A stretch of DNA of 64,000 nucleotides, from contig NZ_CADFDK010000008.1 in NCBI RefSeq assembly GCF_902832885.1, positions 124,001 to 188,000 on the forward strand, given 5' to 3'. The translations under genes were made by a program, and so were the position numbers. Under the pieces are notes generated by a model. It worked only from the letters and a program-made list of their open reading frames with translations, was not told the DNA's origin and made no database searches. Source of the stretch: Burkholderia seminalis DSM 23518. Lineage in GTDB: Bacteria; Pseudomonadota; Gammaproteobacteria; Burkholderiales; Burkholderiaceae. This document shows positions 29,728-52,637 of the stretch, in pieces (within the stretch, counting starts at the first letter, position 1; each line of letters begins with the position of its first letter).

Positions 29728-29803
29728 GCGCCCGTAGCTCAATGGATAGAGTACTGCCCTCCGAAGGCAGGGGTTGCTGGTTCGATCCCAGCCGGGCGCG
29801 CCA
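29728..29803 (+). tRNA. tRNA-Arg (anticodon CCG)
   Basis: 76 nt with a complete cloverleaf. The acceptor stem is GCGCCCG paired with CGGGCGC, the D arm contains AGCTCAATGGATAGAG, the anticodon loop is CTCCGAA with anticodon CCG, and the T arm is GGTTCGATCC. CCA is encoded. The last 10 nt before and including CCA lie inside the integrated element, which therefore supplies the 3' acceptor strand (see tailocin entry). Confidence 0.97.
29759..29794 (+). repeat. attL core (36-bp direct repeat, in tRNA-Arg)
   Basis: Runs from the anticodon loop to the 3' strand of the T stem and first acceptor base. It is identical over 36 bp to 52602-52637 and diverges on both sides. Adjacent to the integrase gene. 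Confidence 0.92.
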
Positions 29804-29818
29804 AGCCTGTTCAGGCTC

Positions 29819-30934
29819 TCAGCGGTTTTCCCCCTTTGTCGTGCAGCCGCGTTGCAGCTGAATTGCAGCGGGCACCGGCGTCGGTTCAGACGTCAACGGC
29901 GCGACCCATTGCGCCAGGTGGTCGGCCGACAGGTGTGCATACCGCTGCACCATTTCCATCGTTTCCCATCCGCCCAGTTCCTTGAGCACCTGAAGCGGCG
30001 TGCCGCGCTGCACGTGCCAGCTTGCCCAGGTGTGGCGCAGGTCGTGCCAGCGGAAGTCGCACAGACCGGCGCGCTGCAACGCCTTGGCCCATGCCGCCGT
30101 GGCCGTCTGGTAGACCGGTTTGCCGTGATAGACGAACACGCTGTCCACGCATTCCGGCAACCGCGGGTTCGCGCGCTGGCGGCGCAGCACGGCGATCGCG
30201 GTGTCCGACAGCGGCACGGTGATCGCCTTTCGCGCCTTCGCCTGATCCGGATGGATCCAGGCGACGCGACGCGCGAGGTCGATTTGTGACCATTGGAGCC
30301 CCGTCACATTGGAACGGCGCAAGCCGGTCTCGAGACTGAAGCGCGCCATGTCGGCGAGATGCGCGGGCAACTCGGCGAGCAATCGCTCGGCCTCGACCGG
30401 CGTCAGCCAGCGGATGCGTTTCGAGACGACCTTCGCGCGCTTCGTGACGGGGGCACGCGCCAGCCATTCCCATTCGACGGCCGCGTTCAGCACGGCTTTC
30501 AGCACGCCGATCACGCGGCGCACGGTGGCGTCGCTGACGGCCCGGCCTGTTTCGACGACACCGTGCCGCGTGCGCACCGTACGCGGCTCCTGACGTTTGG
30601 CGAGCGCGATCGCATCGATGCGGCCGCGGTCGATATCGGCGAGTGCGACGCCGGACAGGTGCCGGTCGAGCCAGCGCAGATGGATCTTCGACGTTTCCAG
30701 GCTCGCGAGGCCCGATCGCTCGCCGACATAGCGGATGACCGCGTCGTTCCACGAATGGCGTGGCTTCGTCCCGAGCCGAGCCTGGTTCCACAGGTCGACC
30801 TTCAACCGGTCGTGGAATTCCTGGGCCTGCGCTTTGTCGCGGGTGCCAGTGCTTCCCTGTATCGGCGTTCCGCCGCCAGGGGGGTACAGCTTGTATTGCC
30901 AGTTCGGGCTGGTTTTCCGCTTGTAGAGCGACAT
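29819..30934 (-). CDS. int: Tyrosine-recombinase integrase of the tailocin element
   Basis: 371 aa from ATG 30934 (MSLYKRKTSPNWQYKLYPPGGG), with AGAGGAAG upstream. The N-terminal arm-binding/SAM-like core-binding domain is followed by the catalytic domain. That domain has the catalytic Arg in SLETGLRRSNVTGLQW, the H-x-x-R box HDLRHTWASWH, and the nucleophile Tyr in METMEMVQRYAHLS-like context near the C-terminus. The gene ends 25 bp from the attL core, as usual for tRNA-integrating phages. Its 5' end overlaps the upstream HTH gene by 133 bp. It appears intact. Confidence 0.93.
   Translation of the reverse strand: MSLYKRKTSPNWQYKLYPPGGGTPIQGSTGTRDKAQAQEFHDRLKVDLWNQARLGTKPRHSWNDAVIRYVGERSGLASLETSKIHLRWLDRHLSGVALADIDRGRIDAIALAKRQEPRTVRTRHGVVETGRAVSDATVRRVIGVLKAVLNAAVEWEWLARAPVTKRAKVVSKRIRWLTPVEAERLLAELPAHLADMARFSLETGLRRSNVTGLQWSQIDLARRVAWIHPDQAKARKAITVPLSDTAIAVLRRQRANPRLPECVDSVFVYHGKPVYQTATAAWAKALQRAGLCDFRWHDLRHTWASWHVQRGTPLQVLKELGGWETMEMVQRYAHLSADHLAQWVAPLTSEPTPVPAAIQLQRGCTTKGENR
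29852..29869 (+). repeat. Candidate integrase arm site, left end
   Basis: TTGCAGCTGAATTGCAGC recurs with one mismatch and in the same orientation at 52478-52495 near the right end. A GTGCAGCC half-site also occurs at both ends. The position near both att cores suggests arm-type Int binding. The left copy lies within the int coding end. Confidence 0.45.
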
Positions 30935-31251
30935 GGGTTCGCTTCCTCTTGCTGATTGTTTTGCGTGACGCGCGGGAGCCATTCCCCGGCGAGGTAGCGC
31001 TGCAGCGCAACGATGGAAAAGATCCAGCGCTTGCCGACCTTGCGGCCGGGTAGCGCGCCGGCCTTGGCCTTCAGGCGCACCGTTTCGGGATGCGCGCCGA
31101 GCAAGGCCGCCGCGCCGGACAGGTCGACGGTCGCCGGATTCGCGTCGTCGGCAGGCCGCGCGCCGGGTGGGCATGCAGCGCAACTCGTGGAGTGATGGGT
31201 CGCGTGTGAACGGTGCATAACACGTTGATATTCAAGGGTTTGGTTTGCCAT
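30802..31251 (-). CDS. Excisionase-like helix-turn-helix protein
   Basis: 149 aa from ATG 31251; a start at 31219 is also possible. The central region DLSGAAALLGAHPETVRLKAKAGALPGRKVGKRWIFSIVALQRYLAGEW is a MerR/Xis-type winged helix-turn-helix of the 'helix-turn-helix domain' family that binds DNA as a directionality factor. The last 44 codons overlap int in another frame. Next to int, this is the natural candidate Xis and may also bind the CGTGGC repeats just upstream. Confidence 0.7.
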   Translation of the reverse strand: MANQTLEYQRVMHRSHATHHSTSCAACPPGARPADDANPATVDLSGAAALLGAHPETVRLKAKAGALPGRKVGKRWIFSIVALQRYLAGEWLPRVTQNNQQEEANPCRSTSGKPARTGNTSCTPLAAERRYREALAPATKRRPRNSTTG

Positions 31252-31267
31252 CGGTCGCCATCATTCA

Positions 31268-31485
31268 CACGTGGCGGCGGCACGGAACCCGTGGCACGAA
31301 ATTGCGCCGTCGATCGCGACCGATGGCATCGCGTGTCCGACTCGTGGCGCGCGATTGCGGCCGGCCGTTGCGCCTTCCCGGTGCTCTTTCTTCTTTCTCT
31401 TCAATGAGTTGAAGAGAGAGAAAGAGGAGGGTGTGGCGGTTGGCGGGCAAACCGGACTCGTGGCAAAAACGGCACGACACGTGGC
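31268..31485 (+). repeat. Five direct copies of C(A/C/T)CGTGGC
   Basis: Copies start at 31268, 31288, 31341, 31457 and 31478, all in the same orientation. The outer pairs are spaced 20 and 21 bp, about two helical turns. The second and third copies share a longer imperfect 22-bp repeat ending in ATTGCG. The region is non-coding (31252-31628). Possible iteron-like origin or binding array for the excisionase-like protein or primase. Confidence 0.5.
31391..31422. repeat. Pyrimidine/purine-rich hairpin
   Basis: CTCTTCAA-TGAG-TTGAAGAG (31397-31416) extends outward to about 14 bp with one G-T pair. It lies in the middle of the CGTGGC array, between primase and the HTH gene. It could end the primase transcript or be part of an origin. 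Confidence 0.5.
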
Positions 31486-31628
31486 GAATCCGGGCAGATG
31501 CGCGGCGGCAGTTTCTTCAAGAATCAAGGACTTGAGAGCCGGCACCCCTGGCAACCGCGACTCGCGTGCGCTGCGTGACCGCTTCCCGCGACCCGCGCCG
31601 CGCGCCAGCCGGTATGCTGAATCGCGGC

Positions 31629-34421
31629 TCATGCGCGGCCTCCGTGCAGCGCGTCGGTCGCCAGGTCCTCGCGCACCGACACGTGCAGGCCGAATGCCGC
31701 CAGGCGCTCGAGCGACACCGGCGTGAGATACGGCACGCGGCGCATGTAGATGCGGCGCTCGACCTCCTTCTCGCCGACCACGACACCGGCGTGCTTGAGC
31801 TGCGCCTTGAACACGCGATCGGACTTCACGGGCAGGCCGTTCCACTTGTCGCGCAGCGCGCTCGTGTGCGCGAGGTGATCCATTACGTGCCCGGTGCGCA
31901 GCAGCAGGCAGAATTCGCCGTCGACGGTGTCGAACGTGTACGGATGCTTGTAGTTGCCACCGTCGATTTCCGACAGCACCGTCTCCATGATCCAGACCCA
32001 CGGCTCGCGGTCGGCGCTCGTTTCGGCGACGTGGCCGTTCATCTCGGCGAGCAGGTCGCGCGGGAAATCGCCTTCGCTCGGGTCCATGCCGGCGAACTCG
32101 CACAGGTAGCGCCAGGCCAGCCCGACCGCCGCGTAGTTGCCGGCCATGCGCCGTGCACCGTCGTCCTCGCCGCTGGCGCGGCAGCCGGCAAGTGCCTTGT
32201 CGCGCAACGTTGCGTACTGGTCCAGTGCCGCGCGCCGGTCGAGCCCGGTCAGGAATTCGAGCCATTGCCGCAGCGGGAAGCGCGGCAGGTCGTCAGGCAG
32301 GAGCGGCCCGCGCTTGCCGGTCAGTGTCGTGCGCACGAGCTTGCCGAGCAGGCTGCGCACCGGCACGTCCTCGCCGGCGAGCATCACGGGGGCGCACAGC
32401 AGGTATTCGGTCATGTCGGTGCCGCGCCGCGTCACCGTGTATTGATAGTTCTCCTGCAGCAACCCGACCGCCTTGTCGATCACATCCTGCCGGCGCGCCG
32501 ACAGTTCTTCCCAGCCGACCGGGTGGCTCGTGTGGCTGATGCTGGTCAGCAGCCGGAATTCGGTCTGCAGCGACTGCCCCGAGAACATCGTGAACGCGAG
32601 CGAGCGCTCGAGGCGCTTGATGAGCGTCGACTTGCCCGCGCCCTTGTTCGCCTGGATCGTCAGGTGCGGCCAGAAGCCGAGCAGCGCTTTCAGATGGCCG
32701 CCGAGCGCCCACACGAGCGGGATCGTCGCGGCGTTCTGCCGGAACGTCGTCTGGTAGGCCGAGATCACGCGGCGCGCGTCGCTCACCGGGCCGCCGGGGA
32801 ACGTCAGGTTGTGATACGGGCACTGCTTGTCCGCTTCGGTGAAGTAGCAGTCGGGGCCTTCGTTGACGATCAGCCGGCCGTCGCGCCACGCGAGCCCGAC
32901 GAAGTTCGCGGCGCGGCGCGCACCCAGGTCGGCGCCGCGCTCGAGGATGTTCACCATCCGCTTGAACGGTGCCGGCGCCCAGATCGGGCCGAACTTGCCC
33001 CATTGGTCGACGTTGTGCAGCTGGTCGTCGAGCATCACGCGGCGGATCAGCTGCGCACCGTGCCGCGGCGCCTGCACCGACACCGCGAAGTAGACGGTGG
33101 GCGCCTGGTCGGCGTCGCCCGTCATCGTCGACGTCGCGCTCGCGACGGCCACGCGGCTGATGCCGGCGATGCGAAAGCCGCACAGATCCGTCATCACGGG
33201 CGTGTCGACGCCCGATTCCTCGTTGCGATCCATCTTGGTGATGTAGCTCGTGAAATCCGGCCGCACGCGAAACCGCCAGTACTGCGCGAAATCGTGCGGC
33301 GGCAGGAAGATGCGCGGCCGGCCGCGGCGTGACGCGTCGCCGGGCAGGCCGGCGACCAGCCAGGGTTCGAGCTGGTCGAGCGCGCGCGCCAGGTCGGTCG
33401 GGCCGCGCAGTTGCAGGTAGTCGTTCACGTCGTTGATCGGTGTGCGCGCGGTGTCGCCGTCCGCCAGATCCGCGAGCCAGTCCGACTGGTCGACCAGCAC
33501 GGCGCTGATGTCGAGTGCCGTCAGCCGTTCGTGGAGCGTCCATGCGGCCTCCGGGCCGGGGCGCTGCCCGGCGCGCGGATGGCCGTCCGCGAACGGCTCG
33601 TCGTTGTCCAGGCAGATCGTGACCTGCTTGCCGCGCAGGAACGCGAAGTCGATGCGCTCGGCGTTCGCGAGGCCGCGCAGCGCGAGCGCGGCCGTGCCGG
33701 GCAACGCGCAGGTATCGATCGACAGCGCGTTGATCGCGCTCTCGACGATGACCACGCGCTTCGCGCGGTCGAGCCGGCGCGCGTCGGCGGTCCACGCATA
33801 GCCGGCCTTGTCGCCCTGCGTCTGCGTCTTGACGCCGCCGTTGAGCGCGGGATCGACGTAGCGCATGTCGACCGCGACGACACGCGCATCGCCCGGCGCG
33901 CGCACCACGAACGCGGCGGCCGGGCCGCCGTGGCCGACCTCGCCGGCGGCGATCTTCGGGCTCGTCCACGTATTGAAGCCGAGGGTGCGCGCGGCGATCG
34001 CCGCGTCGATTGCCGCAGCGGCAATGCCGCGGCCGCCGAGGTAGTCGCGCACGCGCTCGCGCTCGGCCAGGCACCGGTCCGCGATGTACTCGACGGTCGA
34101 TTTCTCGCGGCGCTCCGCCGGCGCCGGCCGCTCGGACGGGAGGCCGTACGCGTCGTGCAGATAGCGCACGGCATCGGCGACGGTGCCGCCGCGCGCGTGG
34201 ATCACGAGATCGATGCAGGAGCCGCCGGCGTCGGCGCTGTGATCGCGCCAGCCGGTGCCGTATTTCGGGTGGTTCGCGTAGATCGACAGCGACGGGTTGC
34301 GATCCGCGTGCTGCGGCGAGTGATAGAGCGCACGGTCGCCGCCGCGGCCGCGCTTCAGGCCGAGACGGTCCGCCAGGTCGTGCAGGTCGATGTGTCGTTT
34401 CAGTTCGTCGATCGAGGCCAT
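31629..34421 (-). CDS. Phage primase/helicase (Toprim plus DUF927-like ATPase)
   Basis: 930 aa. The N-terminal 100 residues resemble a CHC2 zinc-finger primase domain (YHSPQHADRNPSLSIY...GWRDHSADAGGSCIDLV), but the zinc cysteines and histidine are largely replaced. Residues about 225-320 form a Toprim domain (VVIVESAINALSID...TICLDNDEPFADG). The C-terminal half is a superfamily 3/DUF927-type ATPase with Walker A ANKGAGKST. In related P2-like Burkholderia phages this protein starts replication, so its retention in a headless element is notable. It ends next to the CGTGGC repeat array. Confidence 0.85.
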   Translation of the reverse strand: MASIDELKRHIDLHDLADRLGLKRGRGGDRALYHSPQHADRNPSLSIYANHPKYGTGWRDHSADAGGSCIDLVIHARGGTVADAVRYLHDAYGLPSERPAPAERREKSTVEYIADRCLAERERVRDYLGGRGIAAAAIDAAIAARTLGFNTWTSPKIAAGEVGHGGPAAAFVVRAPGDARVVAVDMRYVDPALNGGVKTQTQGDKAGYAWTADARRLDRAKRVVIVESAINALSIDTCALPGTAALALRGLANAERIDFAFLRGKQVTICLDNDEPFADGHPRAGQRPGPEAAWTLHERLTALDISAVLVDQSDWLADLADGDTARTPINDVNDYLQLRGPTDLARALDQLEPWLVAGLPGDASRRGRPRIFLPPHDFAQYWRFRVRPDFTSYITKMDRNEESGVDTPVMTDLCGFRIAGISRVAVASATSTMTGDADQAPTVYFAVSVQAPRHGAQLIRRVMLDDQLHNVDQWGKFGPIWAPAPFKRMVNILERGADLGARRAANFVGLAWRDGRLIVNEGPDCYFTEADKQCPYHNLTFPGGPVSDARRVISAYQTTFRQNAATIPLVWALGGHLKALLGFWPHLTIQANKGAGKSTLIKRLERSLAFTMFSGQSLQTEFRLLTSISHTSHPVGWEELSARRQDVIDKAVGLLQENYQYTVTRRGTDMTEYLLCAPVMLAGEDVPVRSLLGKLVRTTLTGKRGPLLPDDLPRFPLRQWLEFLTGLDRRAALDQYATLRDKALAGCRASGEDDGARRMAGNYAAVGLAWRYLCEFAGMDPSEGDFPRDLLAEMNGHVAETSADREPWVWIMETVLSEIDGGNYKHPYTFDTVDGEFCLLLRTGHVMDHLAHTSALRDKWNGLPVKSDRVFKAQLKHAGVVVGEKEVERRIYMRRVPYLTPVSLERLAAFGLHVSVREDLATDALHGGRA

Positions 34422-34426
34422 CGTCG

Positions 34427-34684
34427 TTATTGCTGTCGTTCAGGTTGTGCGGGCTGCGCGGAAGTGGCCGCCGTGGCCGGTGACGCGACGAGCGCGCGCA
34501 GCGCGGCGGCGGATTGCGGGAAGCCGAGCGCAAGGCGGTCGGCGAGCGCCGACACGAAGCAGCCGAGCGCGAGTTGCCGTGCAACGTGGTCGGGCGCGTG
34601 GTCGAAACACGGCATGTCGGCGGCCGCCGCGATGGCCGCCCGGAGCGCGACGTCGTGCGGTGCGGGATCGGCGTAGCGGTTCAT
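34427..34684 (-). CDS. Small phage protein of unknown function
   Basis: 85 aa from ATG 34684, with CGGAGG upstream. Ala-rich, mostly helical, ending in an A/Q/P-rich tail. It lies 5 bp before the primase start on the same strand, so co-expressed early. Not recognised. Confidence 0.6.
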   Translation of the reverse strand: MNRYADPAPHDVALRAAIAAAADMPCFDHAPDHVARQLALGCFVSALADRLALGFPQSAAALRALVASPATAATSAQPAQPERQQ

Positions 34685-34811: not shown

Positions 34812-35060
34812 TCAGACGGGCAGCTCGAGCTGCGCGGCGAGGCGTTCGCGCACGTGCGGCGAGAGCGGCAGCTGCAACGACAGGTTCGGGATCGCGGACG
34901 GCGACAGCGTGCGCGCGAATTCCATGTTGACGACGTACGTGTGGCCGCATTCCGGATTCGAGCACTGGAACGTGATTTCGCGGAAGGTCAGCGACATTTC
35001 ACGGCTGCTGCGCGCGGTGGCGCGCGTGCGGCAGTGCGGGCAGCGGTTCAGGATTCGCAT
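34812..35060 (-). CDS. ogr: Ogr/Delta-type zinc-finger activator of late genes
   Basis: 82 aa. The N-terminal zinc ribbon has CPHC near residue 7 and CSNPEC about 25 residues later, with the family pattern C-P-H-C...T...Q-C-x-N-x-x-C-x-x-T-Y-V. GGAGTGA precedes the ATG. In P2 Ogr activates the late tail and lysis promoters. Here it lies in the early leftward operon next to primase rather than just after gene D. Its presence argues that the tailocin tail operons are still under phage-type late control. Confidence 0.9.
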   Translation of the reverse strand: MRILNRCPHCRTRATARSSREMSLTFREITFQCSNPECGHTYVVNMEFARTLSPSAIPNLSLQLPLSPHVRERLAAQLELPV

Positions 35061-35227: not shown

Positions 35228-35443
35228 TCAATGACGCGCGCTCCGGGAGCGGGGCGCCGTGATCGCGCGCAGATGGCTCGCGCCGAGGCGGATCAGCTCG
35301 CGCGCCATGCTCGAGATCGAGCGGTTGCGCTGCGCGGCGAGCTGTTCGAGTTCGCCGCGCTCGACAGGCGTCAGCCCCACGTAGACGGGTTTGTCCGACA
35401 TCGTGCCGCGCGGCGAACGGCGCGGTCCTTTGGGAGTAGTCAT
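35228..35443 (-). CDS. Ribbon-helix-helix (CopG/Arc-like) DNA-binding protein
   Basis: 71 aa (58 aa if started at 35401). PVYVGLTPVERGELEQLAAQRNRSISSMARELIRLGA has the beta strand and two helices of ribbon-helix-helix repressors. It diverges from the XRE repressor across a 90-bp region and could act as a Cro-like or Cox-like regulator of early genes. Confidence 0.7.
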   Translation of the reverse strand: MTTPKGPRRSPRGTMSDKPVYVGLTPVERGELEQLAAQRNRSISSMARELIRLGASHLRAITAPRSRSARH

Positions 35444-35533: not shown

Positions 35534-36025
35534 ATGACACAAATCGGGAGTCGCTTGCGGGACGAGCGCTTGCGGATCGGGCTCAGCCAGGACGAGTTTG
35601 CGACCGTGGGTGGCGTCGCGAGACGCTCGCAGTCGGCGTACGAGTCGGACGAGCGCGCTCCCGACGCGGCTTATCTGCTGGCCATTCGCGCGATCGGCGT
35701 CGATATCGGTTACGTGCTGACCGGCGAGCGGTTCGCCGCCGGCGGGGCGGCGCCGGAGGCGGGCACCCGCGACGCGGACGAAGCCGACGTGCTCGCGATG
35801 TACCGGCAGCTCAACGACACCGGCAAGGCATCGCTGCATGCGTTCCTCGCCAGTTGCATCAATTCGGGGGCGATGGTGCAGGCCGCGACGCCGCGGCGCG
35901 CGAAACGCCTGCCGGAGAAGCGTCGCGCGGCGCTCGATCAGCGCACGGCCGAAAACGTCGATCGCGCGATGGCCGAGATCGAACGGCTGAAGGCCGAACG
36001 CGCGACGAAGCCGTCGAAGAAGTAA
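35534..36025 (+). CDS. XRE-family repressor (CI-like) of the tailocin
   Basis: 163 aa. Residues 1-65 form an XRE helix-turn-helix (GSRLRDERLRIGLSQDEFATVGGVARRSQSAYESDERAPDAAYLLAI) followed by GVDIGYVLTGE, a pattern common in phage repressors of Pseudomonas and Burkholderia. The C-terminal 90 residues are helical and basic. No S24/LexA-like Ser-Lys autoprotease domain is present, so RecA-triggered self-cleavage is not expected. The only other rightward gene in this area is the small ORF behind a LexA box. Confidence 0.85.
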   Translation: MTQIGSRLRDERLRIGLSQDEFATVGGVARRSQSAYESDERAPDAAYLLAIRAIGVDIGYVLTGERFAAGGAAPEAGTRDADEADVLAMYRQLNDTGKASLHAFLASCINSGAMVQAATPRRAKRLPEKRRAALDQRTAENVDRAMAEIERLKAERATKPSKK

Positions 36026-43905: not shown

Positions 43906-46527
43906 TTAGTAGGCGCGGATCATGGCGAGCAGCGCGATGTTGCGCGGCCGTGCTTCGTTGCTGCCGTCACCGTTGACGGTGATGGCGTGGCTGTGGCGAC
44001 CGGCGCCGCCGATGCCGACGTTGTGGCCGTGGTTGCCGGCTTCGCTGAGCCAGATGCCGGTGCCGGCACCCTCGGTGCCGTGCATGTCCTGCCGGTCCCA
44101 GTTGTACGGGCCCCAGCCTTGGCCGTAGGAGGTGGCGACGACGCCGACGCGCCCCATCCGGACACCGTGCGCGTGGCCAGGATCATTGACGCCGTGGCCG
44201 TGCTGTCCCTGCCCGTCGGTCCAGGCCGAGTGCGCGTGATCGCCGACTTCGCCCGCGCTTGCGCCGTGGCCGTGCCATCGGTTCGCGCTGTCCTGCCACG
44301 AGCCGAGTATTCGATTGGTATCGATGCCGCGCGCGTCGTCCCAGCAGCGGATGTGCTCGCCGCGCAGTTCGGGGAGGCGGAATGTCGTCGTGCCGTTACC
44401 GTGCGAGAAGCTGCCCCACAGGGCTTTCTGCCATTCATCCTCCGTCACCAGTGCGCCGCTGGCTTGTGCGTACGCCCACAATGCGGGATAGTCGGCGCGA
44501 TTGACGAGCGCGCCGTTGGCCTTGAGGAACCCCGTGCGTACCGACGTACGAGGTTCGAAGACGATCTGGCCGATGGAGTTCGTCGATAGAGCGGCCAGCA
44601 CCCATTCGGTAGTAGCGAGCGCCGTTGACCGGTCGCCTGCCGCGGGTGTAGGGCCCTGCACGGGCGTTTTGAAGACAGTGCCTCCGGGCGTGAACGATGC
44701 CTGCGCGACCGAGTTGCACGTGACGCCGAACGACCCATCGTTGATGTGGTACAGGCCGGTGTCCGGTGCGCCGTCGTTGATGAACGTGAGGGACGGTGCT
44801 TGCGCGCTGCCTTCCGACAGGTAAATCCGCTTGCCCGGATCGAACCAGAGATCACCTGTCATCGTGCCGCCCTTCGTGCGATCGAGCGGCGTCAGGTTTC
44901 CGGTGTGCCATGCCGGCTTGCCATCGATGCGGAAGGTGTGGTCATCGGTGTGATACGCGAACGAGCCGTTGTTTGCGCCCCACCAGCCAACCGCCTTGTC
45001 GTTGCCAAAGAGGTAGCCATCGATGGGGCCGATGCGCAGGCGTCCTTCGTATGGGCCATTGCCGAGAGCCAACTCACCACGAATGCTGGTGTTGCCGCCG
45101 ATCGATGTGCCGGCTCCCTGATCGTCGATAGTGACGCGACCGGTCGCGAGGTTCAGCGTGAACGGCCGGTAGTCGTTGAACGTGCCCTCCGGATCACCTT
45201 TCTTCGTCGACAGCAGATAGACGTTCACGCCGTCGTTGCGCCAGAACGCACCGTAGTCGCCGTAGACCGTTCGGAAATTCGCGCCACCGGTGTCCAGTTC
45301 ACGCGAGGTCACGCCACCCTTGAACGTGGCGCTCCCCCCTGCCTGAACCGCATTGCGGCCGTCATCACCGACATCACCGACGAGCAGGCGCTTCGCCACC
45401 GAGAACGCCTGCGTGCCGCGGCTGACACGAAACGCGGGAAACTGCGTGACACCGTCGTCCGCGAACGCGTTCACGCCGAAATCGTTGCCGCCGTTGCCTC
45501 CGGTTGCCGCGCCGTCCCGCTTGAACATCGACCAGCGGATCTTGCCGCCGTCGGTGAAGAACAGCGTCGAGAAATTGCCGGCGCCACCGTCGATCGAGGC
45601 AGCCTTCGCATAGCTCGTACCTTCCGCAACGGTGTCGCCGCCGACACGCAGTCGCGAATTCCCGTCGTCGTTCTTGACGTCGCCAACCAGCACGCGGCCG
45701 CCGTAGCCGATGCGCAGGGCGCGCGCCTGGTTCGCGTCGATCTCGGCGTCGTTGGCGGTCTTGTTGAGCCACAGATCGACGTACTCGCGGCCCCAGGCAC
45801 CGCTGTCGAAACCGGAGCGGATCGTTGCGATGAGGCGCGACCCTGTATCCGGATTGTTGCCGCTGAACGTGCCATGCAGGCGCACGCGGCCTTCGCGACC
45901 GTTCTTGCCGGTCGGCGGACGAATCGACACGTGCGCGGTATCAGGACCCGCATCGAATTCCGTGACGACCGGGCCGGTGAACTTCGCGCCGGTCAGCGCC
46001 GCGTATCGCGACGCGGCGGTCTTCGGCGTCAGCACGCGCGTATCGTCGGTGCCGGTGTTCACTTCTCCCTGCGTCGCCAGCTCGACCACGCCCTGCCGCT
46101 CCGTCGTCGCCGGCGGATTCAGGAACGATGCGTCGCCGAACACGAGCTTCGTCGCGTCGATCGTCGCGAACTGCATGTCGGTCGACAGCAGCAGTAACGC
46201 GGCCGGCGACTTCTCCATGATCGGCGTCGTCTGGCCGTATGCGGCCAGGAGCACGCCGTTCTCGAGGTAGAGGCCGAATCCGTAGAGCGAATACTGGTCC
46301 GCCGAGTCGTCCTTCAGCGTCGTGTGGATCGTGTCCGGCGCGACGTTGGCGCCGCCGAAGGACTTGATCCGTTTCAGCTCGTTCGGCAGTTTCGTGAGCC
46401 CCTTGTCGGCGACGAACGGCGCGTTCGCCAGGCCGATTTCCACGGCCTGGTGGGCGTTCGTGCCGCCGTTGCCGGCGGCGACGAGTGCGGCACGGCCGGC
46501 GTCGGTGATGATGATCTGGGTTGCCAT
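43906..46527 (-). CDS. H: Tail fibre (receptor-binding) protein H
   Basis: 873 aa. N-terminal P2 GpH/Mu-type baseplate-binding domain: MATQIIITDAGRAALVAAGNGGTNAHQAVEIGLAN. A long repetitive beta-rich shaft of G/N/D-rich motifs and GGANFRTVYGDYGAFWRNDGVNVYLLST-like units follows. The C-terminal 150 residues contain at least six His-x-His motifs (HGHG, HAHS, HGHG, HAHG, HGHN, HSHA), as in iron-binding fibre knobs of T4 gp37 type, and end NEARPRNIALLAMIRAY. It decides which cells are killed. Confidence 0.92.
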   Translation of the reverse strand: MATQIIITDAGRAALVAAGNGGTNAHQAVEIGLANAPFVADKGLTKLPNELKRIKSFGGANVAPDTIHTTLKDDSADQYSLYGFGLYLENGVLLAAYGQTTPIMEKSPAALLLLSTDMQFATIDATKLVFGDASFLNPPATTERQGVVELATQGEVNTGTDDTRVLTPKTAASRYAALTGAKFTGPVVTEFDAGPDTAHVSIRPPTGKNGREGRVRLHGTFSGNNPDTGSRLIATIRSGFDSGAWGREYVDLWLNKTANDAEIDANQARALRIGYGGRVLVGDVKNDDGNSRLRVGGDTVAEGTSYAKAASIDGGAGNFSTLFFTDGGKIRWSMFKRDGAATGGNGGNDFGVNAFADDGVTQFPAFRVSRGTQAFSVAKRLLVGDVGDDGRNAVQAGGSATFKGGVTSRELDTGGANFRTVYGDYGAFWRNDGVNVYLLSTKKGDPEGTFNDYRPFTLNLATGRVTIDDQGAGTSIGGNTSIRGELALGNGPYEGRLRIGPIDGYLFGNDKAVGWWGANNGSFAYHTDDHTFRIDGKPAWHTGNLTPLDRTKGGTMTGDLWFDPGKRIYLSEGSAQAPSLTFINDGAPDTGLYHINDGSFGVTCNSVAQASFTPGGTVFKTPVQGPTPAAGDRSTALATTEWVLAALSTNSIGQIVFEPRTSVRTGFLKANGALVNRADYPALWAYAQASGALVTEDEWQKALWGSFSHGNGTTTFRLPELRGEHIRCWDDARGIDTNRILGSWQDSANRWHGHGASAGEVGDHAHSAWTDGQGQHGHGVNDPGHAHGVRMGRVGVVATSYGQGWGPYNWDRQDMHGTEGAGTGIWLSEAGNHGHNVGIGGAGRHSHAITVNGDGSNEARPRNIALLAMIRAY

Positions 46528-46533
46528 GTGCGA

Positions 46534-47076
46534 TCAGTAGTCGGTGAGGTTCAGGCGGCGATAGGCCGCCACGCGCGCGGCGGCGCCGATCAGTTGTCGG
46601 CCCCGCATCTCGAAGCCCTGCGTGAACGTGTAATGCGCCCGCACGGGTTTGGTGCGATCGATTTCCGCGAGGATGTCGGCCACGTATTCGGCGGTCGGCG
46701 GCTGGCCTTCCTGGCCGCTGACCGTCATCACGAGGTCGAACGTGCCGGGCCGACCCGGCGGCCGCTGCTCGAACCATTCGCGCAGGACGATGTTTCCGCC
46801 AAAGGCCGCGACGACCTCGCGCACCGACGCGGCCGTGCCCTTGCGACGGGCGATCGGAATCGCCTGGCCGGCGCGGGCGCGCTTCACGTACTCGGGCCAG
46901 TAGTCCTTCCATGCGTCGACGCCGAGGTGCCAGGCGAGCCACGGCAGCAGGTCGGGGCGGATCGTGTCCGGATTCATCAGCGTCGCGAGCGGCGTCGGCA
47001 CGTCGTCGATGCGGGCATTCGTCGCGGCAAGCCGGCGTTCGAGCCGCGACGCATTCGGCGGCAGGATGTCAATCAT
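46534..47076 (-). CDS. I: Tail protein I (baseplate wedge)
   Basis: 180 aa, P2 gpI family: PPNASRLERRLAATNARIDDVPTPLATLMNPDTIRPDLLPWLAWHLGVDAW at the N-terminus. Baseplate wedge protein that anchors the fibres. Overlaps J by 8 bp, as in P2. Confidence 0.93.
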   Translation of the reverse strand: MIDILPPNASRLERRLAATNARIDDVPTPLATLMNPDTIRPDLLPWLAWHLGVDAWKDYWPEYVKRARAGQAIPIARRKGTAASVREVVAAFGGNIVLREWFEQRPPGRPGTFDLVMTVSGQEGQPPTAEYVADILAEIDRTKPVRAHYTFTQGFEMRGRQLIGAAARVAAYRRLNLTDY

Positions 47077-47983
47077 TGCTGTACACCCCGCCGTCGATCA
47101 GCTCGATCCCGGTGCAATAGGGCGCCTGCTGTTTCGTCGCCGGCAGGCCGGCGAGCGGGCTTTCGAGGATCACCTTCTGCACGCCGGCCGCGCGGGCAGC
47201 CGCGTAGATCCCGTCGAGCGTGACTTCCATCCCGAGGCGGTGCATCGATTCGGTGTACTTCTTCATCGCGCGGTTGGCTTCGGCGAGCGCCACCGCGCGA
47301 TCCGGGCCGGCGAAGAACACCAGCCGCGCGCGCACCTGGTAGCGCAGGATGTCCGCGCCGCGCACGGTGACCTGGTCGGTGAGCGGCCGCACGTCGTCGG
47401 CCTGCAGCGCAGCGGCCACGGCGTCGATCAGCGCCTTGTCGGCGGTGCCGTCGCCGTCGCGCGCCAGCACCGTGACGAGCACTTCGCACGGGGCCGGGCT
47501 GATCGCCGACGCGTCGAGCACGCGGCCGTCCGCATTGCGTGCGTGCGAGACGTACGCGCCTTCGGGGCCCGCGACGGAGAAGCTTTGCGGTGCGAGCTGC
47601 GTGCGGGCGCGCAGGTCGGTATCGCTTTCCATGACCGGCGCGACGCCGTGTTCCGGATCGGCGGGCGAGATCGTCAGGCGCCGGATGCCGAACAGCGCCG
47701 CGAGGTTGTCGAGGTCCGCGCCGACCGCATAGGCGAGCATCACGGCGCGCGCAGCGTCGTTCACGCGCTGCCGCAGCACGATTTCGCGGTAGGTGTTTTC
47801 CTGCAGCAGCTTCACGAGCGGCTCCGATTCGAGCGCCAGCGTCGCGGCGATCTCGGCCTGCTCGGCAGCCGGGTAGAGCGACACGAGCCGTGCCTTGCGC
47901 ACGGCAAGCAGCGTCTCGTAGTCGATCGTGTCGACGACGTCGGGCGACGGCAGTTGCGAGAGGTCGATCGGCGTCACGCTCAT
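47069..47983 (-). CDS. J: Baseplate assembly protein J
   Basis: 304 aa from ATG 47983 (MSVTPIDLSQLPSPDVVDTIDYETLLAVRKARLVSLYP). Its start overlaps the W stop by 4 bp. Contains the J-family core ADPEHGVAPVMESDTDLRARTQLAPQSFSVAGPEGAYVSHARNADGRVLDASAISPAPCEVLVTVL. Wedge protein of the baseplate. Confidence 0.95.
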   Translation of the reverse strand: MSVTPIDLSQLPSPDVVDTIDYETLLAVRKARLVSLYPAAEQAEIAATLALESEPLVKLLQENTYREIVLRQRVNDAARAVMLAYAVGADLDNLAALFGIRRLTISPADPEHGVAPVMESDTDLRARTQLAPQSFSVAGPEGAYVSHARNADGRVLDASAISPAPCEVLVTVLARDGDGTADKALIDAVAAALQADDVRPLTDQVTVRGADILRYQVRARLVFFAGPDRAVALAEANRAMKKYTESMHRLGMEVTLDGIYAAARAAGVQKVILESPLAGLPATKQQAPYCTGIELIDGGVYSND

Positions 47984-48342
47984 GCCGTGCCTCCGTGCGT
48001 GACCGGCACGCGAGTCGATACGGCGGTGCCGCTTTCGTTGGTCCAGCCTTCGATGTCGAGATAGAGCGAGCCGGCAGCCGCGTTCGCGTCGTCCGCGGCG
48101 AGCACGACGCGGGTGAGCGTCAGGCGCGGTTCCCAGCGCATGAGCGCCGTCGCGACGGCCGCATAGAGCCGCGTGCGCACGGTGCCGTTGCCAGGCGCGT
48201 CGATCAGGTCCGGCAATTCGGAGCCGAACGTACGGCGCTTCACGCACGACGCGAGCGGCGTCGTGACGATTCTGCCGATCGACTGGTAGAAATGGTCCAG
48301 GCCCGAGATCGAGCGGCCAGTGTTCGCGTTCATGCCTTTCAT
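47980..48342 (-). CDS. W: Baseplate assembly protein W
   Basis: 120 aa, T4 gp25/lysozyme-like fold: SGLDHFYQSIGRIVTTPLASCVKRRTFGSELPDLIDAPGN. ATGA overlaps at both ends (V stop, J start) show coupled translation. Initiates sheath polymerisation at the baseplate. Confidence 0.95.
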   Translation of the reverse strand: MKGMNANTGRSISGLDHFYQSIGRIVTTPLASCVKRRTFGSELPDLIDAPGNGTVRTRLYAAVATALMRWEPRLTLTRVVLAADDANAAAGSLYLDIEGWTNESGTAVSTRVPVTHGGTA

Positions 48343-49025
48343 TGCGGTGCGCTCACGAGTTGTCCATCGCCTTGTTCGCGATGCGTGTGATGCGGGAGGC
48401 TGATGCCCTGGGATTTCACTTCACGCGTGAAGGTGGCCGCGCCGTCGATCTGCATCGTGGCGCCGCCGCCGGCGCCGCCCGTGCCGGTCATGCCGGATTC
48501 GAACGCGAACGGCCCCTTGACCGTCATCGCGCCGGTGCAGGTCGTCTGCTGCGCGTCGAACGTGATGCGCTCGGCCTGCACGGTCGCGTCCCGGGTCTGT
48601 ACGACGACCGATCCCGGCGCGACGACACGGAGGGTCGCGCCGGCCGGCAGCTCGGCCGTGAGCGCATGCGCCGCGTGGTCGTACGTGATGCTTGCGCCGT
48701 CGGGATAGACGCGCGCATGGGTATCCGGGCTCGAAGCCGGCGCAGGCGCGGCATTCGAATAGACGCCGCGCAGCGCGACGCCTTGCGCCGGGTCACCCAT
48801 CGGGCAGAGCAGCACGACCTGTTCGCCGGGCGTCGGCGGCAGCCATTCGCGGGTCCCGCCGGCGGTGCCCGCGACCCACGGAATCCAGTTGGTTTGCAGT
48901 CCGCTGCCGTCGGCATCGGCGTCGCCGACCGAGACACGGCACAACGCCGCCGCATGGTCGACCGCGAGGATCGTTCCCTTGCGCACCGCGTTGCGTGCCT
49001 GTCGTTGAATTTCATTTGCGTCCAT
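48339..49025 (-). CDS. V: Baseplate/tail spike protein V
   Basis: 228 aa. P2 gpV type: an N-terminal OB-fold (RKGTILAVDHAAALCRVSVGDADADG, WIPWVAGTAGGTREWLPPTPGEQVVLLCP) and a C-terminal beta-helix ending in SLPHHTHREQGDG, whose HxH is the iron-binding tip motif of membrane-piercing spikes. First gene of the VWJIH operon. Confidence 0.94.
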   Translation of the reverse strand: MDANEIQRQARNAVRKGTILAVDHAAALCRVSVGDADADGSGLQTNWIPWVAGTAGGTREWLPPTPGEQVVLLCPMGDPAQGVALRGVYSNAAPAPASSPDTHARVYPDGASITYDHAAHALTAELPAGATLRVVAPGSVVVQTRDATVQAERITFDAQQTTCTGAMTVKGPFAFESGMTGTGGAGGGATMQIDGAATFTREVKSQGISLPHHTHREQGDGQLVSAPQ

Positions 49026-49517
49026 GCAGTCATGGTGACGGTCGGCTGGTCGCGGCGCGAGTGATGGCCTGTGTCGTCGCGACGACGACAGCGCGTACCG
49101 GGTGCCGGCACGAAGACGCGCATCGACAATTGCTGCACCGGTCGGCGCGAGGATGGAGTCGTGCGCCTTCGTGACGTCGTCACGAGGTTTGAATGTGTGT
49201 GCCGATCGACGTCGGGAAGCAGGGCGATGAGCTGGGTATGCGATGGAGCGTGTGGCGAGGTGGTCTGAACGGATGCCGCGTGAATGGCGGGACCCGCGCT
49301 CCGCAGGGATGTCGCATGGGTGCTTGTCGCGGGCCGCGCATGGGCGTGCCGTCGCCGGCGAAGGCCGGTTCGACAGGAAGGGATGACGAGCTGATCCGCG
49401 TGCGATCGGGCGGTGCGGTTTCGCCTAGCGGCGAGACGAGGTGGCCGGCTGCGGCGCGCAGCCGTGGGAGAGGCGAACGACGCGGTGTGCGGGAGGGCGG
49501 GCCGGTGCCCGCCGGGC
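49026..49517 (-). other. Gap where P2 gene S would be expected
   Basis: 492 bp between R and V. The only frame over 100 codons (49180-49545 minus) is Arg/Pro-rich without any protein family character. Two palindromes stand out: a perfect 14-bp one at 49073-49086 and CGTGAC-GTC-GTCACG at about 49168-49182. Probably contains the V operon promoter and a lost S gene. Confidence 0.55.
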
Positions 49518-49982
49518 TCAGCGGATCTGCGGCAGCGCGACCCACGTCAGGGTGTCGGCCGGATCGACCTTGGTGTCGTCGACATGCGTGATCTCGTGCC
49601 GGCCGTCAGGCCCGGTCGTCACGGCGACGCTTTCCGTCAGCGCCAGCCGGATCGACAGGTCGACGGCAGCCTGGTCGCGGATGCCGACCTCGAAGGTGAT
49701 GCCGCTCGCGCGCGCGGCCGGGTTTGTCACGAGATCCGGCTGGTTCGCACGCACCCATTCGACCAGTGCGGCGAACACGGGATCGGTGTCGCCGGAAAAA
49801 TTCGTCGCGAGCACGTGGGCCGTGTACCGGTATTCGAACGAGGGCGTCAGCGTGCCGGTCGTCGCGATCGACCCCTGCTCGACGAGTACGGACAGCGCGC
49901 CTGGTTCGGCGGCGAGCGACGGGATGGCGGCGGCGAGCGCCTGCCGCAGGCTGTCCGGCTTAATCATGCGGATGGGCTCCAT
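49518..49982 (-). CDS. R: Tail completion protein R
   Basis: 154 aa, P2 gpR family: MIKPDSLRQALAAAIPSLAAEPGALSVLVEQGSIATTGTLTPSFEYRYTAHVLATNFSGDTDPVFAALVEWVRANQPDLV. In P2 it helps terminate and join the tail to the head; here it may only cap the tail. Start 49982 or the second Met (49967). Overlaps the end of Rz1. Its usual partner S is missing. Confidence 0.85.
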   Translation of the reverse strand: MEPIRMIKPDSLRQALAAAIPSLAAEPGALSVLVEQGSIATTGTLTPSFEYRYTAHVLATNFSGDTDPVFAALVEWVRANQPDLVTNPAARASGITFEVGIRDQAAVDLSIRLALTESVAVTTGPDGRHEITHVDDTKVDPADTLTWVALPQIR

Positions 49983-50247
49983 GGTCGGGGGTGGGCGTGC
50001 CGGCCTGGCATGCCGCGATCATGTCGACGGTGGCCGCGCATGTCGCCCAGGCCGCCTTGACGAGGGTGAGCGCGCCGTCGAGGTCACCGTTGGTGCGGGG
50101 CGCGAGCATCGGCAGCGTGCACGGTTTCACCGTCTGGCACGTGTTCGACATAATCGTCGGCGCCGGTGAGAGCGGGACTGGCTTGCAGGCGGACAACGTC
50201 GTCAGGCAGAGGAGTGTCAGCCCAGGCGCGAAGCGTGGCGTTTTCAT
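49960..50247 (-). CDS. lysC: o-spanin Rz1-like lipoprotein
   Basis: 95 aa. Signal peptide with lipobox LSAC (TLLCLTTLSACKPVPLSPAP), Pro-rich after the Cys, typical of Rz1. The start lies inside the Rz gene in another frame, with 164 bp overlap, and the end overlaps R. Outer-membrane subunit of the spanin that fuses the envelope during release. Confidence 0.8.
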   Translation of the reverse strand: MKTPRFAPGLTLLCLTTLSACKPVPLSPAPTIMSNTCQTVKPCTLPMLAPRTNGDLDGALTLVKAAWATCAATVDMIAACQAGTPTPDHGAHPHD

Positions 50248-50524
50248 CGGTCAATCTCCGGTTTTCAAGTCGAATGGCGTCGAGCTTCGACGCGATCGCG
50301 GTATGCGAGCGATCGAGCCGTGCCTGCTGTTGGGCGTGCGCGGCGGCGTCCTGCCGCATGCGCGCAATGACGTCGTCGCGCGCGGCAAGCGCCTGTTGCG
50401 CATCGGCTCGCTGCTGCTGCGCGATGGCCAGGTCGGCACGCAGCGCATGCAGGTACAGCGCTGCCGCGACGCATGCGGACAGCGCGACGGCGCAGGCGGC
50501 GAATTTCGCGACGAGTCCGTTCAT
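50084..50524 (-). CDS. lysB: i-spanin Rz-like protein
   Basis: 146 aa from ATG 50524 (MNGLVAKFAACAVALSACVAAALYLHALRADLAIAQQQ). One N-terminal membrane anchor followed by a long coiled coil (AQQALAARDDVIARMRQDAAAHAQQQARLDRSHTAI), the pattern of inner-membrane spanins. ATGA overlap with the endolysin stop. Confidence 0.85.
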   Translation of the reverse strand: MNGLVAKFAACAVALSACVAAALYLHALRADLAIAQQQRADAQQALAARDDVIARMRQDAAAHAQQQARLDRSHTAIASKLDAIRLENRRLTDENATLRAWADTPLPDDVVRLQASPALTGADDYVEHVPDGETVHAADARAPHQR

Positions 50525-51363
50525 GTGCCGGTCGTGGCGTTGGCCGAACCCGATGCCGCACCGGCCGAGGGGCGTATCGGCGCATAGCGGTCGTAGGCGC
50601 GCACAAGCTTCACGTCGTAGAGGTTCGTCGCGTAGTCGGGCCCGTTGTACGCGCGGGCGAAAGCGGCCCACTGGCGTGCACCGAGCGCGCGGCGCAGCGC
50701 GTCGTCGGCCGCGATGTAACGGACGAACGCATCGAGGTGCTGTGCTTCGCCGGTTTCCATGCATGCGACGAATTCGTCGATGGACGCGTAGCCGAGGCGC
50801 AGCCAGTGATAGCCCATCACCTGGAACGAGCCCCAGCTCGCGGATTCCCACGCGGCGCCGGCATCGATCGCCTCGGCCGCGGCGAGGCGCGTGTATTCCG
50901 CGGCGCTGCCGCGATAGCCGCCGCGCGTGCACGACACGATGTCTGGCTGACGGGCAGCGAACGGCGCCGGGTCGATGCCGCGCGCCTGCAGCCGCTTCCA
51001 GAACACATGGCGCTCGAACAGGATGACGGGCCGGCCGTCGGGCAGGAAGCCGGCGCCGCGCGACTCGACTTCGTTGACCGCCCGAACGCATGCAAGCGGC
51101 ACGTCGAGCGTGCGCGCGGCGCGTTCGAGGTCGGCGAGCGCGAGATGTTTCGGATCGCGTTGACCGGTGGCCAATGCGGCAAGGGTCTTCGGGCCGGCGA
51201 TGCCGTCGTCGACGAGGCCGGTCCCGCGTTGGAGCGCGATGACGGCGGCTTCGGTCGCCGCGTCATAGCAGTGCGTGACCTGTACCGCGTAACCGGCGCG
51301 AATCAGTCTGCGTTGCAGCAGGCCCACGTCGTCGCCGTGGTCGCCGAGGCGGCGGGTCTTCAT
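50521..51363 (-). CDS. Endolysin: PG-binding domain plus N-acetylmuramidase
   Basis: 280 aa. Residues about 5-65 are a peptidoglycan-binding domain (DVGLLQRRLIRAGYAVQVTHCYDAATEAAVIALQRGTGLVDDGIAGPKTLAAL). Residues about 85-265 match the DUF3380 N-acetylmuramidase domain (VRAVNEVESRGAGFLPDGRPVILFERHVFWKRL, SASWGSFQVMGYHW, FARAYNGPDY) with a catalytic Glu in NEVESRG. No signal peptide, so it needs a holin. It lyses the producing cell to release tailocins. Confidence 0.93.
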   Translation of the reverse strand: MKTRRLGDHGDDVGLLQRRLIRAGYAVQVTHCYDAATEAAVIALQRGTGLVDDGIAGPKTLAALATGQRDPKHLALADLERAARTLDVPLACVRAVNEVESRGAGFLPDGRPVILFERHVFWKRLQARGIDPAPFAARQPDIVSCTRGGYRGSAAEYTRLAAAEAIDAGAAWESASWGSFQVMGYHWLRLGYASIDEFVACMETGEAQHLDAFVRYIAADDALRRALGARQWAAFARAYNGPDYATNLYDVKLVRAYDRYAPIRPSAGAASGSANATTGT

Positions 51364-51366
51364 GAT

Positions 51367-51633
51367 TCATTCGCTCCTCAGGAGGCGTGCGACATTGCCG
51401 CGCGTGCCGCAGACGAACGTCGCGAGGAATACCGAGGTGGCCGCGTCGAAGAAGCCGACGGAGCCCGCATGCAGCAGCAGTTCGATCGATGCGCCGCCGG
51501 CGACGGCGACGAGACTCCATGCGAACCACGATGCGTGGCGCCGGTGCCGCGCGCCGTTGCGTCGATAGGTGAGCACGCGTACGAGCACGGCGACGTGCGC
51601 GGAGAGTGCGATCAGCGCGAGCGGGAGAGGCAT
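51367..51633 (-). CDS. Small membrane protein, holin/antiholin-like
   Basis: 88 aa with about three hydrophobic segments (LPLALIALSAHVAVLVRVLTY, ASWFAWSLVAVAGGASIELLLHAG, FFDAATSVFLATFVCG). Three bp before the endolysin on the same strand. Probably the second membrane protein of a P2-like two-holin cassette. Confidence 0.7.
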   Translation of the reverse strand: MPLPLALIALSAHVAVLVRVLTYRRNGARHRRHASWFAWSLVAVAGGASIELLLHAGSVGFFDAATSVFLATFVCGTRGNVARLLRSE

Positions 51634-51634
51634 G

Positions 51635-51979
51635 TCATCCCCCTTTGCGGAACAGCGAGAGCAGGTCCAGCGTCTTGACCCGCTCGATCAGTTGCAGCGT
51701 GACGGTAATGACGAGCGCGGCCGCGAAGAACGCGGCGACGCCCGTCGAATGGATCGGCGTGGCGCCGACGATTTCGGGTGCGGCGAGGTAGCCCATCACG
51801 AGCGAGATCAGCAGGTAGGCGGCACGCCGCGCGACACCGATCTCCTTCGATGTGACGACCACGAGCGCGGCGCCCGTGAACGCGCCGATCAGCGCGTTGC
51901 CGTCGATGCCGGGCGCGAGCCCGGCGACGCCGAGCGCGGCGGACAGCATGGCGGCGGTGGTGAGGTTCGGTTCGGCCAT
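51635..51979 (-). CDS. Putative holin
   Basis: 114 aa from ATG 51979 (MAEPNLTTAAMLSAALGVAGLAPGIDGNALIGAFTGAALVVVTS). Three transmembrane segments with a charged C-terminus (LIERVKTLDLLSLFRKGG). It follows gene X and precedes the endolysin, the place of gene Y in P2. The single-base gap to the next gene shows tight coupling. Confidence 0.75.
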   Translation of the reverse strand: MAEPNLTTAAMLSAALGVAGLAPGIDGNALIGAFTGAALVVVTSKEIGVARRAAYLLISLVMGYLAAPEIVGATPIHSTGVAAFFAAALVITVTLQLIERVKTLDLLSLFRKGG

Positions 51980-51995
51980 GAAGGCGATTCCAGGG

Positions 51996-52202
51996 TCAGT
52001 CAAACAGTTGCAGCAACGGCCGTGCGCTTGTCACGGTGTCGAGCGGCGGCAGGTAGACGGGCGTGCCGGCGGGCAGGACGACGCCGAGGCTGGCGAGCCC
52101 GGTGTTCGCTTCCAGCACGGTCTCGACGGTGCCGTCGGTCCGACCGTAGTGACGCCAGCACAGCGCGTCGACCGTGTCGCCCTGCAAGGTGCGCGCGATC
52201 AT
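51996..52202 (-). CDS. X: Tail protein X
   Basis: 68 aa, P2 gpX family with a LysM-like fold: MIARTLQGDTVDALCWRHYGRTDGTVETVLEANTGLASLGVVLPAGTPVYLPP. Binds at the baseplate/tube junction. First surviving gene of the former ONMLXYK operon; its ATG overlaps the stop of a short frame upstream. Confidence 0.93.
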   Translation of the reverse strand: MIARTLQGDTVDALCWRHYGRTDGTVETVLEANTGLASLGVVLPAGTPVYLPPLDTVTSARPLLQLFD

Positions 52203-52601
52203 GGCTGGTCCCTCCGGTGCTGAAGGGGCCGGCTGTCGGTGGCGCTGCCGGCCGGCGCGCTGCGCGGGGGAGTCGATGTCGTGCTGCTTGCCATGGCGAG
52301 GTCTCGAGCCGTGAGGCAGTGAAGATGGTTGTCATGGTCGAGCTTCGCGGGGCGGGGTTCAACGAGATGCGTGCGTGATCCGTCCGGACACGCAGCGCGG
52401 CGCGTGTCGCGGCGCGCATCGCGCTTTACGCTTCACGGACTGGCGCGGGATGTTCGCGGGCGGGTGCCGTGCGCGCCTTGCAGCGGAATTGCAGCCTGGG
52501 TGAACCGGGCTGGCCTTGAGTGATCTTGTGCAGCCTTGGTTTTGCCTGGAGGGAGGCGCGCGGAGCCTTGCCGGGCAAGGGGCGGGCAGGCGTAGGTAAA
52601 A
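52203..52601 (-). other. Deletion junction where P2 head genes (Q to L) would lie
   Basis: About 400 bp between gene X and attR. The only frame of note is 31 codons (52199-52294) ending with TGA overlapping the X start (ATGA), possibly the residue of the last head gene (L) or chance. The region must hold the promoter for X and the lysis genes. A candidate integrase arm repeat sits at 52478-52495. Confidence 0.6.
52478..52495 (+). repeat. Candidate integrase arm site, right end
   Basis: TTGCAGCGGAATTGCAGC differs by one base from 29852-29869, in the same orientation. A further TGTGCAGCC follows at about 52527. Confidence 0.45.
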
Positions 52602-52637
52602 CTCCGAAGGCAGGGGTTGCTGGTTCGATCCCAGCCG
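52602..52637 (+). repeat. attR core (36-bp direct repeat)
   Basis: Identical to 29759-29794. The bases after it (CCGCCGCTG) do not continue the tRNA acceptor stem (GGCGCGCCA), so this copy could not rebuild tRNA-Arg on excision. Confidence 0.92.

Follow-up and report, generated by a model that had tools for sequence, protein, structure and literature searches.

We examined a 64,000-nt stretch of DNA from Burkholderia seminalis DSM 23518 (the window; positions 124001-188000 of contig C8, NZ_CADFDK010000008.1, in an assembly of 7.97 Mb and 55 contigs), within which a P2/KL3-type element spans 29759-52637 from att core to att core. These limits agree with those given in an earlier reading of the window (the original prediction), as 36-bp exact repeats start at 29759 and 52602. 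The element carries an ordered P2 tail and lysis gene set and lacks the head genes, and we conclude that it is most probably (probability about 0.9) a member of the BceTMilo family of contractile-tail bacteriocins (tailocins), which we propose works as an SOS-induced headless killing tail. While such weapons are already known in Burkholderia, the present analysis adds to the class a proposed SOS switch, a kept P/O region, and a constrained integrase and primase.

Upon searching the window by tblastn (E <= 0.001) with 53 of the 56 annotated proteins of phage Milagro and 50 of the 52 of phage KL3, we obtained matches in phage order to X, antiholin, holin, endolysin, Rz, Rz1, R, V, W, J, I, H, the tail fibre assembly chaperone, FI, FII, E, T, U and D, as well as to the repressor, the Arc-like regulator, Ogr and the primase. 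The integrase was matched by Milagro Int only, the KL3 integrase giving no match. All matched frames were free of internal stops, the sole exception being a weak match to Milagro gp41, which spans a stop. Pfam backed most of the identities (sheath, tube, baseplate, fibre, tail completion, holin, endolysin, outer spanin, integrase, Toprim primase, Ogr and the helix-turn-helix (HTH) regulators). The ends of the element and its tail and lysis genes are as follows.

29728..29803, plus: tRNA-Arg (CCG), the attachment gene, left intact at the left end (ARAGORN)
29759..29794, no strand: attL core, 36 bp, exact repeat of attR, within tRNA-Arg (CCG)
36798..37868, minus: D, baseplate hub (PF05954)
37865..38296, minus: U, tail protein (PF06995)
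38321..40891, minus: T, tape measure, 856 aa (1075 in KL3 and Milagro); homologous to Milagro, no Pfam match
40907..41409, minus: E and E' chaperones (PF10109); E stops at 41029
41485..41994, minus: FII, tail tube (PF04985)
42023..43195, minus: FI, contractile sheath (PF04984, PF17482)
43251..43889, minus: tail fibre assembly chaperone (PF02413)
43906..46527, minus: H, tail fibre (PF21446, PF07484), with a mosaic C-terminus
46534..47076, minus: I, baseplate (PF09684)
47069..47983, minus: J, baseplate (PF04865)
47980..48342, minus: W, baseplate wedge (PF04965)
48339..49025, minus: V, baseplate spike (PF04717)
49518..49967, minus: R, tail completion (PF06891)
49960..50247, minus: outer spanin, Rz1/LysC (PF23793)
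50084..50524, minus: inner spanin, Rz/LysB; 48% identical to the Milagro i-spanin, no Pfam match
50521..51363, minus: endolysin, N-acetylmuramidase with a peptidoglycan-binding domain (PF11860, PF01471)
51367..51633, minus: holin (PF05449)
51635..51979, minus: antiholin/holin (PF16931)
51996..52202, minus: X, the last tail gene ahead of the head breakpoint (PF05489)
52602..52637, no strand: attR core, 36 bp, exact repeat of attL

The E/E' pair has a slippery TTTTTTG for a -1 frameshift at 41074-41080, and the E' frame stays open until just before T. With the order kept and the frames open, the original claim of a complete and intact P2 tail set largely stood; however, S, which its list omitted, is also missing. 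Its holin-like, endolysin and spanin genes were all recovered without internal stops, and inactivating mutations in sheath or tube, which it had named as evidence against itself, were looked for and none was found. The receptor-binding end of the fibre is mosaic: in 100-residue blocks, residues 1-200 are 83-98% identical to the eight other members of the closest group (group A, below) and 60-77% to Milagro and KL3, whereas residues 701-873 are 52-66% identical to seven of these eight tailocins and to both phages and 89-90% to the remaining one, G043. The target range can therefore not be read from BceTMilo.

Across the whole 64-kb window, tblastn (E <= 0.001) gave no match to Q, P, O, N, M, L, S or the DNA methylase, and with L to Q unmatched, the original statement that no terminase, portal, capsid, scaffold or head-completion gene lies between the att repeats was borne out. 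In P2, S serves in head-tail joining. The Milagro cos region matched the element at 27 bits at best, whereas KL3, our positive control, gave 445 bits with that query. Genome-wide, three head families were searched, and the P2 capsid (PF05125), Phage_portal (PF04860) and Terminase_5 (PF06056) had no match in the assembly. Hence the terminase, portal, capsid, scaffold, completion genes and cos that mark an intact P2-like temperate phage were not found in the element.

We found the same configuration in the closest relatives. Scanning genome contigs gave 26 loci; among 65 genomes of the genus, 39 had some sheath match (E <= 0.001) and nine, including this one, had a match of at least 94% identity. 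Sheaths of B. cenocepacia NCTC13227, B. cepacia LK29, B. lata and B. arboris are 98-99% identical to that of the window and that of B. ubonensis 94%, compared to 80-81% for KL3 and Milagro. All eight closest elements are headless, with the same missing genes and the same breakpoint between X and L, and the nine elements (group A) form one clade with support of 100 in both trees, the first built from the 26 of 28 candidate loci having all of FI, FII, J, W, U and D (L023 and L025 were dropped and L033-L036 unused), the second from 26 rows, with L027, L028, L030 and L031 omitted and L023 included as G050 from the same genome. As this clade takes in the NCTC13227 locus and not the headed phages, the original assignment to the BceTMilo class is upheld. 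Host DNA of the left flank is 89-96% identical in seven of the eight close relatives, highest (96%) in B. arboris, which makes a host of the cepacia complex probable, and the right flank matches the same seven at 71-82%; in B. cepacia LK29 the left flank lies on a separate contig (95%). The same chromosomal site is therefore occupied across species.

We compared BceTMilo through the NCTC13227 locus, from a strain that we take to be the same as J2315, and through the published description, in place of its own sequence record. The NCTC13227 locus resembles the window in sheath (99%), tube (99%), tape measure (91%) and primase (97%), and differs in its fibre (only 77%, mosaic) and in a ~1.9-kb insertion absent from the window. 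BceTMilo of B. cenocepacia BC0425 is described as resembling KL3, with a cut from X to L and neither S nor methylase, and, together with the J2315 locus (BCAL0081-0107), shares with the window the gene set, the breakpoint, the loss of S and methylase, and the Int/Xis/repressor/Ogr layout (PMC5411513). In the window, the integrase is unlike KL3 gp1, Xis overlaps int, and KL3 Ogr and the KL3 gp13-type repressor are matched. For BceTMilo particles, killing and a lipopolysaccharide receptor have been shown (PMC5411513).

KL3 and Milagro (Peduoviridae) are collinear with the window in tail, lysis, regulatory and primase genes, and Milagro also in its integrase (78%) and its 36-bp att core (36 of 36 positions), but both have heads, S, methylase, cos, cargo, the longer tape measure given above and an SOS box with one mismatch. 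R-type pyocins are not known to carry an integrase or primase. As described, these Pseudomonas aeruginosa particles are contractile and headless like the proposed product of the window, with similar tail genes except for tape measure, fibre and chaperone, and are regulated by PrtR/PrtN, unlike the window element (PMC5411513). BglaTNB6 of B. gladioli NB6 is likewise described as an R-type Burkholderia tailocin that derives from a prophage and has no head, while another strain carries a headed counterpart at that locus; compared by its description, BglaTNB6 differs in being a phiE202-like region between cytochrome c and beta-galactosidase genes (PMC11524443).

Selection on the retained genes separates a maintained tailocin from a KL3-type prophage in decay and without function, an alternative that we consider very unlikely. 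The loss of head, S, cos and cargo regions would fit decay, but no stop was found inside the tail and lysis matches of the window and of eight of eight relatives at the same site (the fibre matches being partial in G022, G010 and G062), and the ratio of nonsynonymous to synonymous substitution (dN/dS) for 19 tail and lysis genes was 0.02-0.68 in eight comparisons, the inner spanin giving the maximum. These are simple Nei-Gojobori estimates against the eight relatives, not a codon-model test. Values were 0.05-0.23 for the sheath, 0.02-0.44 for the tube, 0.09-0.19 for J, 0.16-0.21 for the endolysin and 0.13-0.32 for the holin. Constraint equal to that on the tail was seen for primase (0.06-0.12), integrase (0.10-0.17) and Ogr (0-0.07), and weaker constraint for ORF (open reading frame) 34427-34684 (0.21-0.65). 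As a rough negative control served the frame 31261-32265, which overlaps the primase and was rejected as a gene (1.32-1.85 in the eight tailocin comparisons, with stops in three). The same genes being absent from eight relatives at one site at such ratios, the original proposal of selection for tail-only particles rather than random decay was supported.

Still less likely is a phage satellite or trans partner, whose tails would be completed by the heads of a helper phage. The kept and constrained integrase and primase would suit it, and the same genome holds a separate prophage (contig C10, 48000-67500) with a lambda-type head (GpA terminase, portal_2, capsid E, gpD) and a P2-like contractile tail. 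Yet the C10 sheath is only 34% identical to that of the tailocin, and, fibre and chaperone apart, the C10 tail proteins show 28-46% identity where they match, while the C10 fibre is 54% identical to the window fibre over residues 565-873. Head complementation in trans by this prophage is unlikely because of the low sheath identity and because the tailocin is without S and a detectable cos region. Thus, of the head genes elsewhere in the genome that the original prediction had named as a point against itself, the P2-type capsid, portal and terminase are absent, although lambda-type heads do exist on C10. P4-like satellites have cos in common with their helper phage and no full tail set, whereas the element gave no Milagro cos-region match and does have a tail set. 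Least plausible is a contractile injector delivering a protein payload against eukaryotes, akin to extracellular contractile injection systems, which have an AAA ATPase, toxin cargo and a gene order of their own: the reading frames alone would be compatible with a payload, but in both content and order the genes correspond to P2 tail and lysis genes, and a Pfam scan of 27 distinct proteins, run without models specific to such systems, gave no AAA ATPase or toxin family.

A second line of evidence concerns what the deletion left behind, for which the following features are relevant.

49026..49517, no strand: S/methylase deletion site, its V-proximal part conserved among relatives
52282..52433, minus: P/O junction remnant (annotated 5' end of P, gap, first bases of O), 72% identical over 154 bp to Milagro 3070-3221 (75 bits)
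52481..52545, minus: att-proximal arm homologous to Milagro 31517-31581

No gene was recognised in the ~400 bp between attR and X. This strip aligns to Milagro ~3066-3244 in nine of nine group A elements, with bit scores ranging from 36.5 (G043) to 131 (G010), and the att-proximal arm (Milagro ~31490-31581) adjoins the P/O remnant in most strips. The deletion therefore took cargo, cos, Q and the greater part of P on one side of the junction, and the greater part of O through L on the other. Shuffling 500 times the G010 strip gave at most 41.9 bits. In a further shuffle comparison (11 elements scored, B. cepacia LK29 left out), the window strip had a local score of 91 compared to at most 30 in 200 shuffles, G043 scored above each of 200 shuffles of its strip (54 versus at most 32), and so did the other seven group A strips tested, that of the window among them. 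In P2, the P/O region carries divergent late promoters. The kept junction presumably represents the late promoter of the head operon, now placed ahead of X, and from its conservation we infer that it drives X, the lysis genes and R here.

The regulatory region provides a candidate switch.

34812..35060, minus: Ogr/Delta late-gene activator (PF04606)
35228..35443, minus: Arc-like regulator, divergent from the repressor (phrog_3431)
35534..36025, plus: CI-like repressor (HTH_3), 70% identical to the Milagro repressor
36210..36225, plus: LexA (SOS) box CTGTATATCCATACAG, between the repressor and ORF 36308-36628
36308..36628, plus: small ORF (PHROG 12492) downstream of the SOS box, start codon uncertain; proposed antirepressor

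The box CTGTATATCCATACAG is the sole CTGT-N8-ACAG site in the window, with 0.24 expected per 64 kb from shuffling, and ten other Burkholderia stretches held two such sites in 170,909 bases. It is identical in nine of nine group A elements and, in an alignment of eight of them (G007, the NCTC13227 element, was left out owing to its insertion), lies within a conserved island while the remaining intergenic DNA aligns poorly. Two sites of the same form lie upstream of the host lexA gene, one of them with a single-position difference. For the repressor, Pfam gave HTH domains only and matched no self-cleavage domain. By its position and conservation, we propose that ORF 36308-36628 encodes an SOS-induced antirepressor, which would explain why BceTMilo depends on RecA despite a repressor without a self-cleavage domain match. 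Coliphage 186 has such an arrangement in Tum, a small LexA-controlled antirepressor acting on a repressor that does not self-cleave, and the likeness of the window ORF to it would be one of position. Induction of BceTMilo is described as RecA-dependent, and the main text of that paper contains no word starting with LexA, SOS or promoter (PMC5411513); among the literature matches listed, we recognised no report of a LexA/SOS switch in a Burkholderia tailocin.

We suggest the following sequence of events. Upon DNA damage, RecA would become active and LexA be inactivated, vacating the box at 36210, and the product of 36308-36628 would counteract the repressor. Int and Xis, to judge by their conserved genes, would excise the element and the primase would replicate it, while Ogr would switch on the late operons, the X-lysis-R operon being transcribed from the old P/O promoter region if the conserved remnant is functional. 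Tails would assemble headless, at a length set by the tape measure T; holin, endolysin and spanins would burst the cell; and the freed tails would bind surface sugars of the target via H, contract and depolarise it.

Several observations weigh against this account. Constraint is weaker on the tape measure (0.27-0.53), the inner spanin (0.25-0.68), the outer spanin (0.30-0.64, in overlapping frames) and Xis (0.34-0.63). The antirepressor role has no domain support, ORF 36308-36628 having no Pfam match. The P/O match of G043, at 36.5 bits, falls short of the 41.9 bits that 500 shuffles of a different strip reached at most. The LexA box also occurs in headed relatives, exactly in L020 and L022 and with one mismatch in KL3, Milagro, L019 and L021, and is therefore inherited regulation rather than a tailocin adaptation; the exact CTGT-N8-ACAG form was not found in the headless element G052. 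Nor was it found in L016-L018 and L023-L025, some of which are partial loci. The mismatch in KL3, Milagro, L019 and L021 is one common substitution (CTGTATATCCATCCAG), which may weaken LexA control.

In the NCTC13227 element (L011), the ~1.9-kb insertion lies between the SOS box and the proposed antirepressor ORF and holds a reading frame bearing a YADD motif. For J2315, a group II intron and low tail numbers have been described (PMC5411513). With this frame, the insertion matches that intron; that it causes the scarcity of tails in J2315 is speculation.

The left part of the element holds the integration and replication genes.

29819..30934, minus: tyrosine integrase (Int), 371 aa (PF00589), HxLR motif at residue 297
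30802..31251, minus: excisionase-like HTH protein (Xis), overlapping int (PHROG excisionase families; HTH_17)
31261..31632, minus: small ORF after the primase, homologous to part of Milagro gp41, no Pfam match; probably BceTMilo gene 3
31629..34421, minus: primase/helicase-type replication protein, 930 aa (Toprim_3), 94-98% identical in eight of eight relatives
34427..34684, minus: small phage ORF (phrog_5898)

More distant elements bear on the mobility of such loci. G014 (L064, L065), G050 (L076, L077) and G052 (L066, L067) are further headless elements of KL3 type, whose att core matches and which gave no match to L-Q, S or methylase. G014 and G052 retain Int, Xis and primase, the G052 primase match being listed with one TGA; in G050, int and primase lie on a different contig and no Xis was seen. 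G014 and G050 show a weak P/O remnant (39 and 34 compared to shuffle maxima of 32), and none was seen in G052, where 54 of 200 shuffles scored equally well. In the tail tree, G014 and G050 group with KL3-type headed phages (support 100), and G052 falls elsewhere with L025. We ran approximately unbiased (AU) tests with constraint trees from a fast search, on sets A (the nine elements) and B and C (the more distant ones), C including L025 (G025, B. multivorans WS-FJ9), which lies on a truncated contig and is only putatively headless. For the tail genes, monophyly of the headless elements was rejected (p = 3.9e-11 for A+B; 5.6e-36 for A+B+C). For int and primase, A+B+C was not rejected (p = 0.51 and 0.52), although A+B alone was rejected for the primase (p = 0.018); in the best int tree group A is not a clade, yet a group A clade was not rejected (0.175). 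Tail polyphyly at a common att core therefore indicates either repeated head loss or tail exchange after one loss. A tentative idea, to which we give somewhat less than even odds, is that tRNA-Arg tailocins are still mobile, SOS excision and replication raising tail gene dosage, and that tail cassettes were exchanged or heads lost several times at one att core, the weapon being renewed while the element stays.

These results support the notion that BceTMilo-type tailocins are an old, maintained Burkholderia system rather than a strain oddity. They offer testable accounts of how induction can be controlled by RecA when the repressor shows no self-cleavage domain and of how late transcription could survive loss of the head operon. 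Given the constraint on integrase and primase, it also becomes testable whether tailocin production requires excision and replication.

Some minor observations concern individual relatives. Between R and V, no convincing S or methylase remnant was found (best 31 bits, elsewhere in the element), and the R-V gap of G043 held one 14-base match to the remnants sought. In G022, G010 and G062 (L048-L053), this gap is 3.0-3.7 kb compared to 0.5 kb in the window, and near it lie sheath-like fragments, two carrying a stop, and a J-like fragment in L015 (G062), which are apparently the remains of another tail cluster. In B. cepacia LK29 (G061; L038, L039), the 23,414-bp contig C166 consists of just the element, and its terminal 99 bases equal its own positions 73-171; an excised circle is only a tentative reading of this circular or tandem junction, as the end join bypasses the att core and the repeat may stem from misassembly or from a tandem copy. 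At 29819-29860 of the window, the integrase continues for 12 codons beyond a stop at residue 359 that is found in five of the eight close relatives.

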